From Ancylobacter tetraedralis (GTDB lineage Bacteria; Pseudomonadota; Alphaproteobacteria; Rhizobiales; Xanthobacteraceae), in NCBI RefSeq assembly GCF_014195655.1, contig NZ_JACICD010000001.1:1092682-1156681 (forward strand): a stretch of 64,000 nucleotides of DNA. The letters are read 5' to 3'. Made by a program: the position numbers and the translations under genes. The notes under the pieces are model-generated. The model was not told where the DNA came from, did no database searches, and saw nothing but the letters and a program-made list of their open reading frames with translations. Each line of letters starts with the position of its first letter. The first letter of the stretch is position 1. Shown here piece after piece: positions 1,176 through 11,886 of this stretch.

Positions 1176-1264
1176 GCAGTCGCGACGGCGTGGCGGGTGT
1201 GCCGCCGCGGTGATGCCGTCTCCGGCGGCGGTGTAGTGAGACGCAGCGAACGGGTTCGGTGAAC

Positions 1265-3376
1265 ATGGCCAACGACACAACGCGCAATCGGCAGGAGAAT
1301 CCGGCCGAGGATCCGCTTGCCGAACTGGCGCGCCTGATGGGTCAGGAGGACGAGTTCGCCGACCTGCTGCGCCAGCTGCCCGCCTCGCGTCCCACGGCGC
1401 CGGCAAGCGGCACATCGGCGCCGGCGCCGACGCGCGCGGCACCCATGCCCCCGCGTCCGGCCCCGACCCGCCCCGTCGCACCGCCGATGGGCGGCCGTCC
1501 GGCGGCGCCTCCGCCGAGTTCCTTCTCGGCGCTGGCGGCCGAAGCTTATTCCGAGTCCCCGCGTCGCCCGGCCGCGCCGCCGCCGCGTCCCGAGCGCCAG
1601 TCGCTGGAAGATGCCGCGCGCGACCTCAATCGCAATTACGTGCGCCCGGAGCGCCCCACCGAGCGTCCGGTGGAGCCGCGCGGGTATGAGCCGCGTCCGC
1701 CGCTGGATCCCCGCCTGTCCCAGGATACCCGCCTTGCCCACGAATCGCGGGCAAGTGAACCTCGGATCACGGAACCTCGGATCACGGAACCTCGGATCAG
1801 CGAGCCGCGCGTAAGCGAACCGCGCGCGCCGGAAGCCCGGACGGCCGATCCGCGCCTCGCCCGCGAATCGCGGGTGCCGACGGAACCCCGTCACGAGCCA
1901 CGTGCTCCGCAGGAGTTTCGAGCCCCGCCGGAGTTCCGTGCCCCGCCGGAGCCGCGCGTCGCGCCGGAATTCCGCGCCCCGCAGGAGGCTCGCGCGCCGC
2001 AGGAGCCGCGGATTGCGGATCCGCGTACGCCAGAGCCCCGCGCCCCGCAGTTGCGCGCGCCGGATCCGCGTCCCGTGGCGCCGCGTCCCGCTCCCACGGC
2101 ACCCGTTGCCGGCTTCGTGCCGCCCAATTTCTCCGACAGCGCCGCCGATGCCGTCTCGCGCGCGCTGGCCGAGCCTTTCGAATTCGACGACGAGCCCCGT
2201 CCGGAACCCCGGTTGGAGCCCCGTCCGGAGGCGCGTCCGCGGACGGAGCCTGTGGCCGAGACCGCGCCGCCGCCGGCCTGGATGAGCCGGGGCGCGCCCG
2301 GCGCTACGGCCGCCGCGCCGTCCACGCGCGCCGAGGCGCCGGCCTCCCGCGGGTTCAGCGCCGCCGAGGAAGCCTATGACTATGGCAGCTCGGCCGTCGC
2401 GGAAGAGACTTATGAGGACGAGCCGGCGGACGGCGCGGGCTATGATGTCGAGGAAGAGGAAGCCCCCCGTCGCGGGCGCGGCCGCCTCCTTCTGGCTGGC
2501 GCGGCCGTCGTCATCCTGTTGGGCGGTGTCGCGGCCGGCTATGTGCTGCTGTCGCGATCGGGCGGCTCCTCGACCGGAATCGGCGGCGAGCCGCCGATGA
2601 TCCATGCCGAGGGTGGCCCGACCAAGGTCGTGCCGGACAAGGCCGCGCAGGAGCCTTCGGCGACCGGCGAGAAGCTGATCTATGACCGGGTCGGCGGCAA
2701 CGCCACCACGGGCAAGGAGCAGGTCGTTTCCAGCGAGGAGCAGCCGGTCGATGTCTCGCAGGCGGCCCAGCCGCGCGTGATTCCGACGCCGTCCGGCCAG
2801 GCTTCCGGCAGCGCCAATCCGGCGACCGAGCCCAAGCGTGTGCGTACCCTGACCGTGCGGGCCGACGGCACCATCGTCGAGGATGCGTCGCCCGCGCCGG
2901 TCCCGGGCGGCGCTCCGCCGGTCTCGTCGTCGCAGCCAACGGCTTCCACGCCGATCGCTCTCTCCGCCGGCTCCGGCGCGCCGGTCTCCACTGATCCGAC
3001 CCCGCTGTCCGCCCGCCCGTCCATCGTGCCGAACGTGCCGGTGCCGCCGGTTCGCCCGTCGCAGATGCCGCCGGCCACTGCTGCCACCACCGCCGCCGCC
3101 CCGGCGGCTGCGGCTTCCACGGGCAATGGCGCCTTCGTCGTGCAGGTGGCCTCGGTGCCGTCGGAGGCCGACGCCCAGGCGGCTTTGCGCAGCGCGCAGT
3201 CGCGCTTCGGCAGCCTGCTGGCGGGCCAGGCCGGAGCGGTGCGTCGCGCCGATCTCTCCTCGGGCGGCGTCACCTATCGTGCGCAGGTGGGCTCCTTCGC
3301 CAACCGCGCCGATGCGGTGAGCCTGTGCGAGGCGCTCAAGGCGCAGGGTGGTTCCTGCCTCGTCCAGCGCAACTGA
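1265..3376 (+). CDS. SPOR-domain protein with a long Pro/Arg-rich cytoplasmic region
   Basis: About 703-residue single-pass membrane protein. Residues 1-400 are low-complexity, rich in Pro, Arg, Glu and Ala, with short EPRIT/EPRIS and APPEFR/APQEPR repeats; a membrane helix lies near residues 408-428 (LLLAGAAVVILLGG); a Pro/Ala/Thr-rich periplasmic linker follows; a C-terminal SPOR domain starts near residue 624 (FVVQVASVPSEADAQ) and runs to the end. SPOR domains bind peptidoglycan glycans stripped of stem peptides, usually at the division septum. ATG 1265 was preferred to GTG 1259, which adds only two residues. The next gene, nagZ, also concerns cell-wall sugars. Type II membrane topology fits. 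The large N-terminal region has no recognised fold. Confidence 0.85.
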   Translation: MANDTTRNRQENPAEDPLAELARLMGQEDEFADLLRQLPASRPTAPASGTSAPAPTRAAPMPPRPAPTRPVAPPMGGRPAAPPPSSFSALAAEAYSESPRRPAAPPPRPERQSLEDAARDLNRNYVRPERPTERPVEPRGYEPRPPLDPRLSQDTRLAHESRASEPRITEPRITEPRISEPRVSEPRAPEARTADPRLARESRVPTEPRHEPRAPQEFRAPPEFRAPPEPRVAPEFRAPQEARAPQEPRIADPRTPEPRAPQLRAPDPRPVAPRPAPTAPVAGFVPPNFSDSAADAVSRALAEPFEFDDEPRPEPRLEPRPEARPRTEPVAETAPPPAWMSRGAPGATAAAPSTRAEAPASRGFSAAEEAYDYGSSAVAEETYEDEPADGAGYDVEEEEAPRRGRGRLLLAGAAVVILLGGVAAGYVLLSRSGGSSTGIGGEPPMIHAEGGPTKVVPDKAAQEPSATGEKLIYDRVGGNATTGKEQVVSSEEQPVDVSQAAQPRVIPTPSGQASGSANPATEPKRVRTLTVRADGTIVEDASPAPVPGGAPPVSSSQPTASTPIALSAGSGAPVSTDPTPLSARPSIVPNVPVPPVRPSQMPPATAATTAAAPAAAASTGNGAFVVQVASVPSEADAQAALRSAQSRFGSLLAGQAGAVRRADLSSGGVTYRAQVGSFANRADAVSLCEALKAQGGSCLVQRN
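1757..1800. repeat. 15-bp tandem repeat in the SPOR gene
   Basis: The unit GAACCTCGGATCACG occurs at 1757-1771 and 1772-1786, with a third, slightly changed copy at 1787-1800. It encodes the pentapeptide E-P-R-I-T/S. The period is a multiple of three, so copy-number changes would keep the reading frame. Confidence 0.85.
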
Positions 3377-7519: not shown

Positions 7520-8548
7520 ATGTTTGATATCGGCTGGTCCGAGCTTCTGGTGATCGGCGTCGTCGCGCTCGTCGTGATCGGACCCAAGGAATTGCCGGCC
7601 GTCCTGCGCAAGGTTGGGCAGGGCGTCAGCAAGCTGCGCCGCATGGCGGGCGATTTCCAGGGTCAGTTCAACGAGGCGCTGCGCGAGGCGGAGCTGTCCG
7701 AGTTCAAGGACAACATCACCGGTCTGAAGAACGATCTCGGCAATCTCGCCGCCGATGCGCACAAGAGCATCGCCAGCGCCATTCCGACCAATCCTCTGCA
7801 CGATATCGAGGATTCGCTGAAAGCGCCGACGTCGCCGGTCGAGCGCAAGGATCTGCCTCCCGATGCGGTGGAGGGGCTGCCCCCCGAGGCGAGCGAGCTG
7901 GAGCCCAACGCCTTCGAATCGATCGAGGACGAGGTGCGCGCCGCTGCCGCTCACCTGCCCGAGGCAACCACGCCGGCGCCTGTCATCGCGCCGCCCGTGC
8001 CCGCGCTCGCGGTCAGCCCGCCGGTGATTGCCGAGGTGAAGCCGGCCGAGGTGAAGCCGGCTGACGTCAAGCCGGCCGAGATCAAGCCTGCGAGCGTGAA
8101 ACCGTCGTCCGCCATCGCCGATGCGCCGGCGGACGAGAAGCCCAAGCGCGTGCCGCGTCGCAAGGTTGTGGCGCCGGTGGAGGTGGAAGGGGTGCAGACC
8201 GCTTTCGCCCTCGGCGATGCGTCATCGGTTGAGGCCACCGAGGCGGCGAAGCCTGCCGCGCGAGCGAACCGGGTCGCGAGCAAGACGGCGACGACGGCCG
8301 CCGATCCGGCCGTGCATCCCTCGGCCAAACCGGCGCTGACCCGCGCGCGTGCCAAGCCGGCATTGCCCGCTACGGAGAGTGCTCCCGCATCGCCGGCCAC
8401 GCAGGGGGCTGCCGTCAAGCCATCCAAGCCGCGCGTAGCCCAGCCCCGCATAGCCCAGCCCCGCGCATCCAAGCCGCCGGTGACCCAGCCGGGCGATGCA
8501 GCGCCCGCCGGCCGCGATACGACCGGAAATGAAGAGCCGCAGGCATGA
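7520..8548 (+). CDS. tatB: Twin-arginine translocase subunit TatB with a long C-terminal extension
   Basis: Receptor component that binds Tat signal peptides together with TatC. The N-terminus ([26 protein letters not shown]) holds the membrane helix and Gly-Pro hinge, followed by the amphipathic helix. At 342 residues it is about twice the size of E. coli TatB; the extra part, from about residue 100, is Pro/Ala/Lys-rich with degenerate [15 protein letters not shown] repeats near residues 173-195 and 'QPR(I/V)A' repeats near the end. Long tails of this sort occur in other Rhizobiales. The stop overlaps the tatC ATG by 4 bases (ATGA). Confidence 0.93.
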
Positions 8549-9339
8549 GCCAGGATGAGATCGACGCCAGCAAGGCGCCGCTGATCGAGCACCTGATCGA
8601 GCTGCGCGCGCGGCTGATCAAGTCGCTGATCGCGTTTTTCGTCGCGTTCATCGCCTGCTTCATGCTGGGCAAGTTCATCTACAACATCCTGCTCTGGCCG
8701 TATGAGTTCGCGGCCGGCGGTACCGAGCACGTGAAGCTGATCTACACCGCGCCGCAGGAATTCCTGTTCACCCAGATCAAGCTGGGCATGTTTGGAGCGG
8801 CGTTCATCTCCTTCCCCGTGGTGGCGACGCAGATCTACATGTTCGTCGCGCCGGGCCTTTACAGCCACGAGAAGAACGCCTTCCGCCCCTATCTGATCGC
8901 GACGCCGGTATGCTTCGGCATCGGCGCGGCCTTCGTCTATTTCGTCGCCATGCCGCTGGCGATGACCTACTTCCTCTCCATGCAGCAGGCGGCGGGGCCG
9001 AACTCGCCGGAAATCTCCATGCTGCCGCAGGTCAGCGAATATCTCTCGCTGATCATGACGCTGATCTTCGCCTTCGGCATCTGCTTCCAGCTGCCGGTGA
9101 TCCTCACGCTGCTGGCGCAGATCGGCATCGTCACCTCCGACCAGCTGAAGAAATTCCGCCGCTACGCCATTGTCGGCGTGTTCGTGGCCGCCGCGGTGCT
9201 CACGCCGCCGGATGTGGTGAGCCAGCTCGGCCTCGCGATCCCGACGCTGCTGCTCTACGAGATTTCGGTCGTGCTGGTGCGCATGATCGAGAAGAAGCGC
9301 GCGGCGGCCGAAGCGGCGGCGGAAAACGCCGCCACCTGA
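8545..9339 (+). CDS. tatC: Twin-arginine translocase subunit TatC
   Basis: 264-residue, six-helix inner-membrane protein that recognises the twin-arginine signal. Conserved elements include '[17 protein letters not shown]' at the N-terminus, '[20 protein letters not shown]' and the '[18 protein letters not shown]' segment, and 'ILTPPD'-type motif ([10 protein letters not shown]). It is translationally coupled to tatB through the ATGA overlap at 8545-8548. Confidence 0.96.
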
Positions 9340-9481: not shown

Positions 9482-10984
9482 ATGCACGACATCAAATGGA
9501 TCCGCGAGGAGCCCGAGGGCCTCATCCGCGCGCTCACGAGGCGCGGCACCGCCGCCGCCGAAGCGCAGGCGCTGGTGGACAGCCTGTTGTCGCTGGACGA
9601 GCGCCGCCGCTCCGGCATCGCGAAGCTTGAGGAGCTGCAAGCCCGCCGCAATGGCGCGTCCAAGGAAATCGGCGCCGCCAAGAAGGCGGGTGAGAATGAT
9701 CGCGCCGAGGCGCTGATGGCCGAAGTGGCCGCGCTCAAGACCGACATTCCCGCGCTGGAAGCGCAGGTGAAGACGGTCGAGACCGAACTGAACGACACGC
9801 TCGCCGCCATCCCCAACGTGCCGCTGGACATCGTGCCGGAGGGCCGGGACGAGCACGACAACGTGCCGTTCGACGCCCCCGCGCATGCGGAAGCGCCCGA
9901 CAGCGCGCTGCCCATGCCGGCGCTGCGCAACTTCGCCTTTGCGCCGAAGCAGCATTTCGAGATCGGCGAAGCGCTCGGCCAGATGGATTTCGAGGCCGCC
10001 GCCAAGCTTTCCGGCGCGCGCTTCGTGGTGCTGAAGAACAAGCTCGCCCGGCTGGAACGCGCCATCGGCCAGTTCTTCATCAACACCCATACGGAAGAGC
10101 ACGGCTACACCGAGGTCGCGCCGCCGGTTCTCGTCAAGGACGAGGCGATGTTCGGCACGGCGCAGTTGCCGAAGTTCCGCGAGGATCAGTTTGCGGCCAA
10201 GCGGGTTCTTTCTGCTGAGGAAGAACGAGAGCTATTCAAAGAGATCATCTTCCATGACTCCGATCTTATTGAGCGGTTTGGGGGGATCAGCAGATACCTC
10301 GTTTCTGACGGGCATCGTTATGGTTTGAATGAGGAAGGTGTTGCTCTGTTCGGTGAGCGTGCAGCAAGACTTAGCAACCTCTGGCTCATCCCCACCGCCG
10401 AAGTCCCGCTGACCAATCTCGTCGCGCAGTCCATCGTCGCGGAGGAAGAGCTCCCCATGCGCTTCACCGCGCTCACGCCGTGCTTCCGCGCCGAGGCCGG
10501 TTCGGCGGGGCGCGATACGCGCGGCATGATCCGCCAGCACCAGTTCAACAAGGTGGAGATGGTCTCCATCACCACGCCGGAGACGTCGCTGGAGGAGCAG
10601 GAGCGCATGCTGGCCTGTGCGCAGGCCGTGCTGAAGAAGCTCGGTCTGCATCACCGCGTGGTGACGCTGTGCACCGGCGACATGGGCTTCGCGTCTGCCC
10701 GCACCTTCGATATCGAGGTGTGGCTGCCGGGGCAGAATGCCTATCGCGAGATTTCCTCGGTCTCTACCTGCACCGATTTCCAGGCCCGGCGCATGAATGC
10801 GCGCTACCGGCCTGCGGGCGCCAAATCCACGCGCTTCCTGCACACGCTCAACGGCTCGGGCGTCGCGGTCGGCCGCGCCATGGTGGCGATCCTCGAAAAT
10901 TACCAGAACGAGGACGGTTCCGTCACCGTGCCGGATGTGCTGGTGCCCTATATGGGCGGCGTCACCCGCATCGAGCGGGCCTGA
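9482..10984 (+). CDS. serS: Seryl-tRNA synthetase with an in-frame internal insertion
   Basis: Class II synthetase that charges tRNA-Ser and tRNA-Sec. The N-terminal coiled-coil arm (residues 1-105), motif 1 region ([21 protein letters not shown]), serine-binding TxE loop (PTAEVPL), motif 2 ([16 protein letters not shown]) and motif 3 ([18 protein letters not shown]) are all intact, so the enzyme should be active. At 500 residues it is about 70 longer than usual (E. coli 430). The surplus sits at residues about 241-299, just before the TxE loop, in DNA of about 49% GC (10201-10380) with codons such as CTA and AGA that are rare in the neighbours. Start ATG 9482 gives the normal '[12 protein letters not shown]' N-terminus. 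Confidence 0.96.
10201..10380 (+). other. Low-GC in-frame insertion segment inside serS
   Basis: Counting bases gives 89 G+C of 180 (49%), against roughly two thirds in the flanking serS sequence. It encodes about 60 residues rich in charged amino acids (Glu, Arg, Asp), starting after 'FREDQFAAK' and ending before '[10 protein letters not shown]'. Codons include CTA, AGA twice, TTG, AAT, ATT and several NNT. A near-perfect hairpin (GTTCTTTCT / AGGAAGAAC, 10204-10225) marks its left edge. No stop or frameshift. Origin unknown. Confidence 0.75.
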
Positions 10985-11109: not shown

Positions 11110-11886
11110 ATGGAACGGCACATGCGCATTCTGGTCACCAATGACGACGGCATCCACGCTCCCGGGCTTGAGGCCTGCGTGCGCATCGCGCGCGATCTGT
11201 CGGAGGATGTGTGGGTGGTGGCGCCGGAAACCGACCAGTCCGGCGTGTCGCACTCGCTCTCGCTGTCCGATCCGCTGCGGCTGCGGCAGGTGGACGAGAA
11301 GCGCTTCGCCGTGCAGGGCACGCCGACCGATTGCGTGATCATGGCGGTGCGCCACATCCTGAGGGATCACAAGCCCGATCTCGTGCTGTCCGGCGTCAAT
11401 CGCGGGCAGAACGTGGCGGAGGATGTCGGCTATTCCGGCACGGTGGCCGGCGCCATGGAAGGCACGGTGCTCGGCATCCCCTCCATCGCGCTGTCGCAGG
11501 CCTATGGCTTCGAGACCAAGCAGGCCCCGCCCTTCACCGTGGCCGAGCACTGGGGCGCGCAGGTGGTGCGCACGCTGCTGGACGAAGGGCTGCCGCCCGG
11601 CATCGTCGCCAACGTGAATTTCCCCAACCGCCCGGTGGACGAGGTGAAGGGCATCGCCGTGACCGCGCAGGGAAGGCGCGACCAGAACCTGCTGCGCATC
11701 GACCAGCGCGCCGACGGGCGCGGCAATCCCTATTACTGGATCGCCTTCGAGAAGCGCATCTTCGAGACGGTGAACGGCTCGGACCTTCACGCCCTCGACA
11801 ATGGCTTCATCTCGGTGACGCCGCTGCGCCTCGACATGACCGACGAGCCGATGATGACCCGGCTTGCGCAGGTCTTCGCGCGCTGA
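11110..11886 (+). CDS. surE: 5'/3'-nucleotidase SurE
   Basis: Metal-dependent nucleoside-monophosphate phosphatase, thought to help survival in stationary phase. The metal-binding motif 'RILVTNDDGIHAPGL' is at the N-terminus, and 'VLSGVNRGQNVAEDVGYSGTVAGAMEG' supplies the further metal and phosphate ligands. 258 residues from ATG 11110; ATG 11122 (MRILVTND) is an equally plausible start. pcm follows after 21 bases, and the surE-pcm-LysM/M23 (nlpD-type) order is conserved across proteobacteria. Confidence 0.95.
   Translation: MERHMRILVTNDDGIHAPGLEACVRIARDLSEDVWVVAPETDQSGVSHSLSLSDPLRLRQVDEKRFAVQGTPTDCVIMAVRHILRDHKPDLVLSGVNRGQNVAEDVGYSGTVAGAMEGTVLGIPSIALSQAYGFETKQAPPFTVAEHWGAQVVRTLLDEGLPPGIVANVNFPNRPVDEVKGIAVTAQGRRDQNLLRIDQRADGRGNPYYWIAFEKRIFETVNGSDLHALDNGFISVTPLRLDMTDEPMMTRLAQVFAR

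Follow-up and report, generated by a model that had tools for sequence, protein, structure and literature searches.

The HsdS subunits of type I restriction systems exchange target-recognition domains, and these and other cassette-switched proteins share with the locus described here a conserved frame, unrelated exchangeable domains and a pool that is common to several species. They are, however, specificity or surface proteins, whereas seryl-tRNA synthetase (SerRS, gene product SerS) acts in the cytosol, in translation. Insertions confined to one lineage are a familiar feature of synthetases, and such lineage-specific insertions and signature indels resemble the present case in placing extra residues at a synthetase loop, but ordinary indels track descent, whereas the slot that we describe differs between sister species and is common to distant genera. 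The palindromic elements of Rickettsia, repeated copies of one palindromic element lying in-frame in many genes, are likewise in-frame coding insertions by which the host gene is not lost, but there are many copies and a palindrome, while the module here is a single copy, has no palindrome and, where searched, is found in SerS only. We know of no synthetase with turnover of this kind, and a full-text search, with most subscription journals outside its coverage, found no account of a hypervariable slot in any synthetase, SerRS included. A fourth comparison is human cytosolic SerRS, in which insertion II (G254-N261) lies near the active site and, according to a review, has a negligible role in aminoacylation (PMC10817482). 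Residue 300 of the SerS studied here aligns in PDB alignments with position 265-266 of the human chains, and our slot thus appears to coincide with the insertion II site near the active site, but the human insertion has eight residues and is specific to higher eukaryotes, whereas the bacterial slot holds inserts of 30-97 residues from 89 sequence families.

The gene that carries the module lies between tatC and surE in an Ancylobacter genome, within the 64-kb stretch of DNA that was analysed (the window), and its features are collected in Table 1. It encodes a bacterial-type SerRS, with PF02403 and PF00587 both exceeding the cut-off and matches to SerRS in the PDB with E-values down to 5.8e-128. 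The N-terminal Pfam domain is at residues 1-114 and the class II core at 298-474, so that recognised SerRS domains flank the block on both sides, while no Pfam family was found on the block itself (E up to 1). The module has a GC content of 0.51 and a GC3 of 0.49, compared with a GC3 of 0.886 for the remainder of serS. An earlier note had pointed to this block as a foreign-looking, in-frame segment adjoining the TxE loop that does not visibly disable the enzyme, and this description is supported. The count of 89 G+C in the 180 nt at 10201-10380 that it gave is exact, and this is the lowest value of the 64 kb (180-nt windows, step 10), where all windows with a GC of 0.52 or less start at 10151-10221. 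Two details need adjusting. Of the codons said to set the block apart, CTA and AGA (and also CGA) are indeed confined to it within serS, but TTG (2) and AAT (6) also occur elsewhere in the gene. The surplus length at this site amounts to 57 residues above the insert-less SerS of Ancylobacter, which has 6 residues there, rather than about 70. Two other open reading frames in the vicinity have unusual composition: the one upstream of tatC (7520-8548, + strand) carries an extended Pro/Ala/Lys tail that contains degenerate repeats, and a long Pro-rich one (1259-3376, + strand) has degenerate EPRITEPRISEPRVSEPR-type repeats and varies among relatives whichever strand is read.

Table 1. Features of the serS locus (window coordinates).
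Feature	Coordinates	Strand	Basis or remark
tatC, syntenic neighbour	8545..9339	+	
serS, seryl-tRNA synthetase, 500 aa	9482..10984	+	Pfam Seryl_tRNA_N and tRNA-synt_2b; nearest solved structures are bacterial SerRS
Upstream flank (..KFREDQF), probable recombination edge; divergence tracks module change	10133..10192	+	Divergence ratios of the last codons
Hypervariable 63-residue module (AAKRVLS...RLSNL), predicted small, mainly helical domain	10193..10381	+	In-frame between DQF and WLIPTAE; edges set by insert-less SerS
Downstream flank with TxE motif, conserved, no excess divergence	10382..10441	+	Comparison of close pairs
surE, syntenic neighbour	11110..11886	+	

SerS was sought in 101 relatives, 76 class genomes, 90 phylum genomes, at least 158 family genomes and the best 80 named genomes, with one genome per species, and part of the loci were fetched; 341 of 342 SerS loci were parsed, the partial gene L342 being dropped, and genus labels were entered by hand from tables. 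Inserts were classed as long (at least 30 residues) or short (9-29), and sites with the standard 6-8 residues as having none. Within the Xanthobacteraceae the slot is seldom empty: of the 168 SerS genes (42 genera; genome G032 counted with two genes), 17 have no insert, 42 have a short one and 109 a long one (30-97 aa), and long inserts turn up in 35 of the 42 genera. Long inserts were found in 5 of 31 parsed genes from other families of the order, and in 3 of the 75 class genomes with a match (29 of which were fetched and parsed, the others being judged from split match coordinates). Outside the class, among the matches listed in the phylum search, 66 of 67 genomes gave a one-piece SerS match of ordinary length and one gave no proper match; two same-order genomes in that search hold long inserts. 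Among the named loci with a long insert, both tatC and surE are adjacent in 12 of 15 and one of them in the other 3, and because this neighbourhood is kept we regard the insert-bearing SerS as the native orthologue. The assembly counted twice (G032; L050 and L051) has one SerS gene with a 97-residue insert and one with none, but its contamination is 6% and it may be mixed. SerS relatives are also encoded by nine viral contigs of IMG/VR (L204-L212), all with 6-7 residues at the site and none with an insert.

The contents of the slot are very diverse. Comparison of 127 distinct long inserts by all-versus-all phmmer (L464 and L465 are not among them), with families joined at E < 1e-3, gave 89 sequence families, 68 of them singletons; this is an upper estimate, since profile searches join some of them, for example the window's family with L023/L259. 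Families are frequently distributed across genera, as 15 of the 21 with several members span more than one genus label, and one example combines an Ancylobacter insert (L013) with that of a metagenome-assembled genome (L171) whose SerS shares 46% identity with that of the window. The window's own family has eight members, three in Ancylobacter and the others in four other genera. Its insert is present in 3 of 391 family genomes, including its own, and a profile of the family matched 1 of 385 class genomes, again its own (few of the 385 are from the Xanthobacteraceae), while another module family that was searched for matched 4 of the 391; all matches to either in the 391 genomes are within SerS. 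What had been viewed as a one-off acquisition is therefore one occupant of a slot that is filled by a long insert in most SerS genes of the family, usually by a different one.

The modules differ even between the closest relatives. We took pairs of family members whose flanks agree at 95% or more and of which one or both have a long insert; in 36 of these 38 pairs the inserts are less than 25% identical, and in one they reach at least 35% (L058, L059 and L085 were dropped from the pair comparison for their short flanks). Ranked by flank sequence, the nearest neighbour belongs to the gene's own genus in 142 of 151 cases but has the same insert family for only 8 of 96 long-insert genes, and an ordinary lineage insertion is rejected on this ground, with exceptions such as the clade g158. 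The earlier note had named, as the mark of an ordinary lineage insertion, a block of normal codon usage occupying this site in most alphaproteobacterial SerS, and this pattern was not seen. For within-genus pairs with a long insert and a divergence at four-fold sites below 0.15, only 1 of 13 has the same family and 12 have different modules. The window and its relative G016 illustrate this, with unrelated inserts of 63 and 90 residues between SerS flanks that are 93% and 97% identical, against a median identity of 94% over 49 ORFs. Some clades are stable: all seven fetched genes of genus g24 have one conserved form of 20-21 aa, most of g26 has a 12-aa form, and all three genes of g158 have one common 56-aa module. 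Judged from these sequences, species are shown to differ in the whole module while the surrounding enzyme is nearly unchanged, and module turnover would be about as fast as speciation, or faster.

Is serS exceptional among its neighbours? As a control for variability we compared 49 stop-to-stop ORFs of the window that have relatives (including some wrong-strand frames) with five related genomes in 210 comparisons. Nine ORFs were flagged, among them serS in four of the five genomes, the exception being G021, whose insert also belongs to another family. The eight others are sequence upstream of a start codon, wrong-strand frames or Pro/Ala-rich linkers, and serS is the one real case among the 49. 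Other synthetases were also considered, with SerRS, AspRS and ThrRS examined in full and the class I enzymes through PF00133 match lengths alone. In 30 Ancylobacter genomes ThrRS lacks a slot of this kind and differs only at the N terminus, and the PF00133 match lengths are near-constant in the same genomes (coordinates only, covering a portion of each protein). In AspRS there is a second slot, which is rarer, with private inserts in the loop GYI(M/Y)..GP(I/L/V)A in 6 of the 30 genomes, among them the window's (L421; aspS at G000:C1, 965209-967062) and G016. L420, L422 and L417-L419 are further loci with this slot. The replaced stretch is 24-93 residues long in the five measured, the sixth being read from the protein, while most other genomes have 8 residues. 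These inserts are mostly of low GC, and the window's genome and G016 carry unrelated ones. Elsewhere in the family AspRS inserts are found in L453-L455, L457 and L458-L460, with none at this site in L456, and the best E-values for nine AspRS inserts were 0.007 among themselves and 0.014 against the SerS inserts. The phenomenon is thus not private to SerRS and, as ThrRS shows, not general to synthetases.

The modules carry signs of exchange and of constraint. Close relatives with different inserts have an elevated divergence on the upstream side of the slot, where the last 10 codons are at 2.95 times the gene background if inserts differ (23 pairs) and 0.99 times if they are alike (13 pairs; p = 7e-6 over 36 independent close pairs), and the last 20 codons at 2.35 and 1.02 times (the same numbers of independent pairs; p = 2.6e-5), the same-insert pairs being largely genes with a short insert or none. 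The downstream flank shows no excess in the 36 pairs. We read the upstream excess as the probable edge of short recombination tracts, to which adaptation beside the slot could contribute. Together with the families common to several genera it points toward a probable exchange of alleles by recombination. For module-sharing pairs, dS could be estimated in 10 of 21, and in these the insert dN/dS is 0.03-0.32, compared with 0.06-0.44 in the flanks and with no value above 1. Modules common to two genes are therefore kept as constrained sequence, and change occurs via replacement.

The source of the modules may be compositionally distinct. GC is below that of the insert's own flanks in 114 of 127 cases, with a mean GC3 of 0.571 versus 0.846, and the GC3 deficit is larger in the 68 singletons (0.312) than in the 59 inserts of multi-member families (0.232; p = 0.003), a pattern expected of modules that arrive from an AT-richer pool and then ameliorate. 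Phage and plasmid searches with 4 of the 127 inserts revealed no donor: the window's insert had no tblastn match in phages or plasmids (E up to 1), two long singletons had none in phages (E 0.01) and one member of the VbhA-like family considered below had none in plasmids (E 0.01). When the full set of 127 was scanned with a threshold of E 0.01, the inserts matched four PHROGs families with one member each (best 0.003), two families in PADLOC (best 4e-4) and four in NCBIfam (best 7e-4), and in Pfam matched VbhA with three members and three other families with one each; the single-member matches are taken as chance.

By sequence comparison the slot sits directly ahead of the TxE strand. An AlphaFold2 model of the window's SerS (35 sequences) has a mean pLDDT of 86.9, with 62-79 in the block, which is predicted to form helices at 245-257, 260-266 and 284-297 between strands 237-239 and 300-302. 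The insert of A. defluvii is predicted with similar confidence to form four helices between strands 238-241 and 304-307. Structure comparison with the whole SerS chain, which informs on the enzyme and not on the fold of the module, found SerRS alone among the matches, with E. coli SerRS at Z 45.8 and an rmsd of 2.1 over 426 residues. The suggestion that the block might alter the recognition of tRNA-Ser or serine is not indicated, given the negligible aminoacylation role that the review assigns to the human insertion at what is apparently the same site (PMC10817482).

We propose tentatively, and at a confidence somewhat short of even, that the block represents one allele of an accessory domain of the Xanthobacteraceae SerRS, hypervariable and exchanged horizontally, that has been diversified by a protein antagonist. 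Modules would be exchanged via homologous recombination across the conserved flanks, drawing on a large pool. The driver, which is the weaker part of the proposal, would be diversifying selection that favors novelty, imposed by an intracellular protein such as a phage takeover protein, a toxin or a kinase that docks near the active-site cleft of SerRS, and the module could serve as a replaceable shield or decoy without effect on serylation, with AspRS and its rarer like slot perhaps under the same kind of attack. Loci for specificity or evasion have this pattern of a conserved frame with unrelated domains that are exchangeable and constrained. According to one study, HipA-type kinase toxins phosphorylate GltX and TrpS in Caulobacter, an alphaproteobacterium (PMC7029023), and we infer by analogy that SerRS or AspRS may be targets of such toxins or of takeover proteins in these bacteria. 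Neither an antagonist nor a partner nor a linked gene was found. The replacement of modules alone is no proof of positive selection, and the insert dN/dS lies within the range of the flanks. Against a driving antagonist there are also the 17 SerS genes without an insert, the stability of some clades and the tolerance of the site to insertion.

These last points speak for neutral tolerance, a serious rival that we consider somewhat less likely than the proposal, in which the hairpin before the TxE strand takes any foldable domain and recombination imports SerS alleles with no selection among them. The very large number of unrelated families, the clades that hold a single form and the insert-free genes fit such a permissive hairpin, as does the negligible contribution to aminoacylation of the eukaryotic insertion at the same site, according to the review (PMC10817482). 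The common inserts, however, are by their dN/dS not free to decay, the modules differ in 12 of 13 close within-genus pairs while the rest of serS and the other ORFs of the window are alike, and ThrRS is without a comparable slot in the 30 Ancylobacter genomes. Neutral tolerance explains the variety, and less easily the speed and the constraint on common modules. That constraint, and the position next to the serine-binding motif, could alternatively mean that the module serves SerRS itself, species by species, in tRNA-Ser binding, dimer contact or regulation. We think this improbable, as a conserved substrate predicts conservation and not 89 families, and 17 of the 168 SerS have no insert at all.

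A selfish element that enters synthetase genes in frame, similar to the Rickettsia palindromic elements, would account for the reading frame, the low GC, the sharp boundaries and the occurrence in AspRS too. It is nevertheless a very improbable reading, since the window's genome has only one DNA copy, both module families for which a search was made (of the 89) are confined to SerS among the 391 family genomes, most inserts have no sequence in common, and there is no stable RNA fold (z -0.13, with 83 of 200 shuffles folding at least as well). For the window's module itself a mobile in-frame element is rejected, with one copy, in SerS only, and no palindrome, the best long inverted repeat being 24 nt at 71%. 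Equally hard to credit is an embedded antitoxin or immunity domain that neutralizes a toxin in cis, its alleles following the toxins present. Three of the 127 inserts (L029, L274 and L294), of one family that is not the window's and also includes L260 and L133, match the C-terminal half of the Pfam VbhA profile with E-values of 1.3e-4 to 4.3e-3, but the match covers about 24 residues and scores at best 22.3 bits against a cut-off of 25.9, no other Pfam antitoxin matched any of the 127 at 0.01, and the VbhA-like family is found only inside SerS in the 391 genomes. An intein is rejected, as the 63 residues contain no Hint splicing domain (no Pfam family on the insert, E up to 1), and so is an RNA element, as Rfam finds tRNA-Asp alone in the window.

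One would expect such turnover in surface or defense proteins but not in an essential housekeeping enzyme, and a cytosolic enzyme essential to translation is where allele turnover as fast as speciation would be least expected. The earlier note correctly recognized an in-frame, foreign-looking block, but a single foreign acquisition is too small a reading of what is a hypervariable slot. In its broadest form, which we regard as somewhat less probable than the proposal for the block itself, our preferred reading is that some alphaproteobacterial synthetases, SerRS foremost and AspRS less so, may be targets in an arms race, each with a swappable allelic shield domain that is shuffled between genera, as an intracellular counterpart of antigenic variation. 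If selection drives the turnover, there would be a direct and persistent attack on SerRS and AspRS, and the insert families would be a map to the attacker. If the turnover is neutral, SerRS would be a natural grafting site for dozens of unrelated domains beside an active site, which would be of use in protein engineering and in studies of how old proteins gain new domains. In both cases the slot region misleads alignments and trees that are based on SerS.
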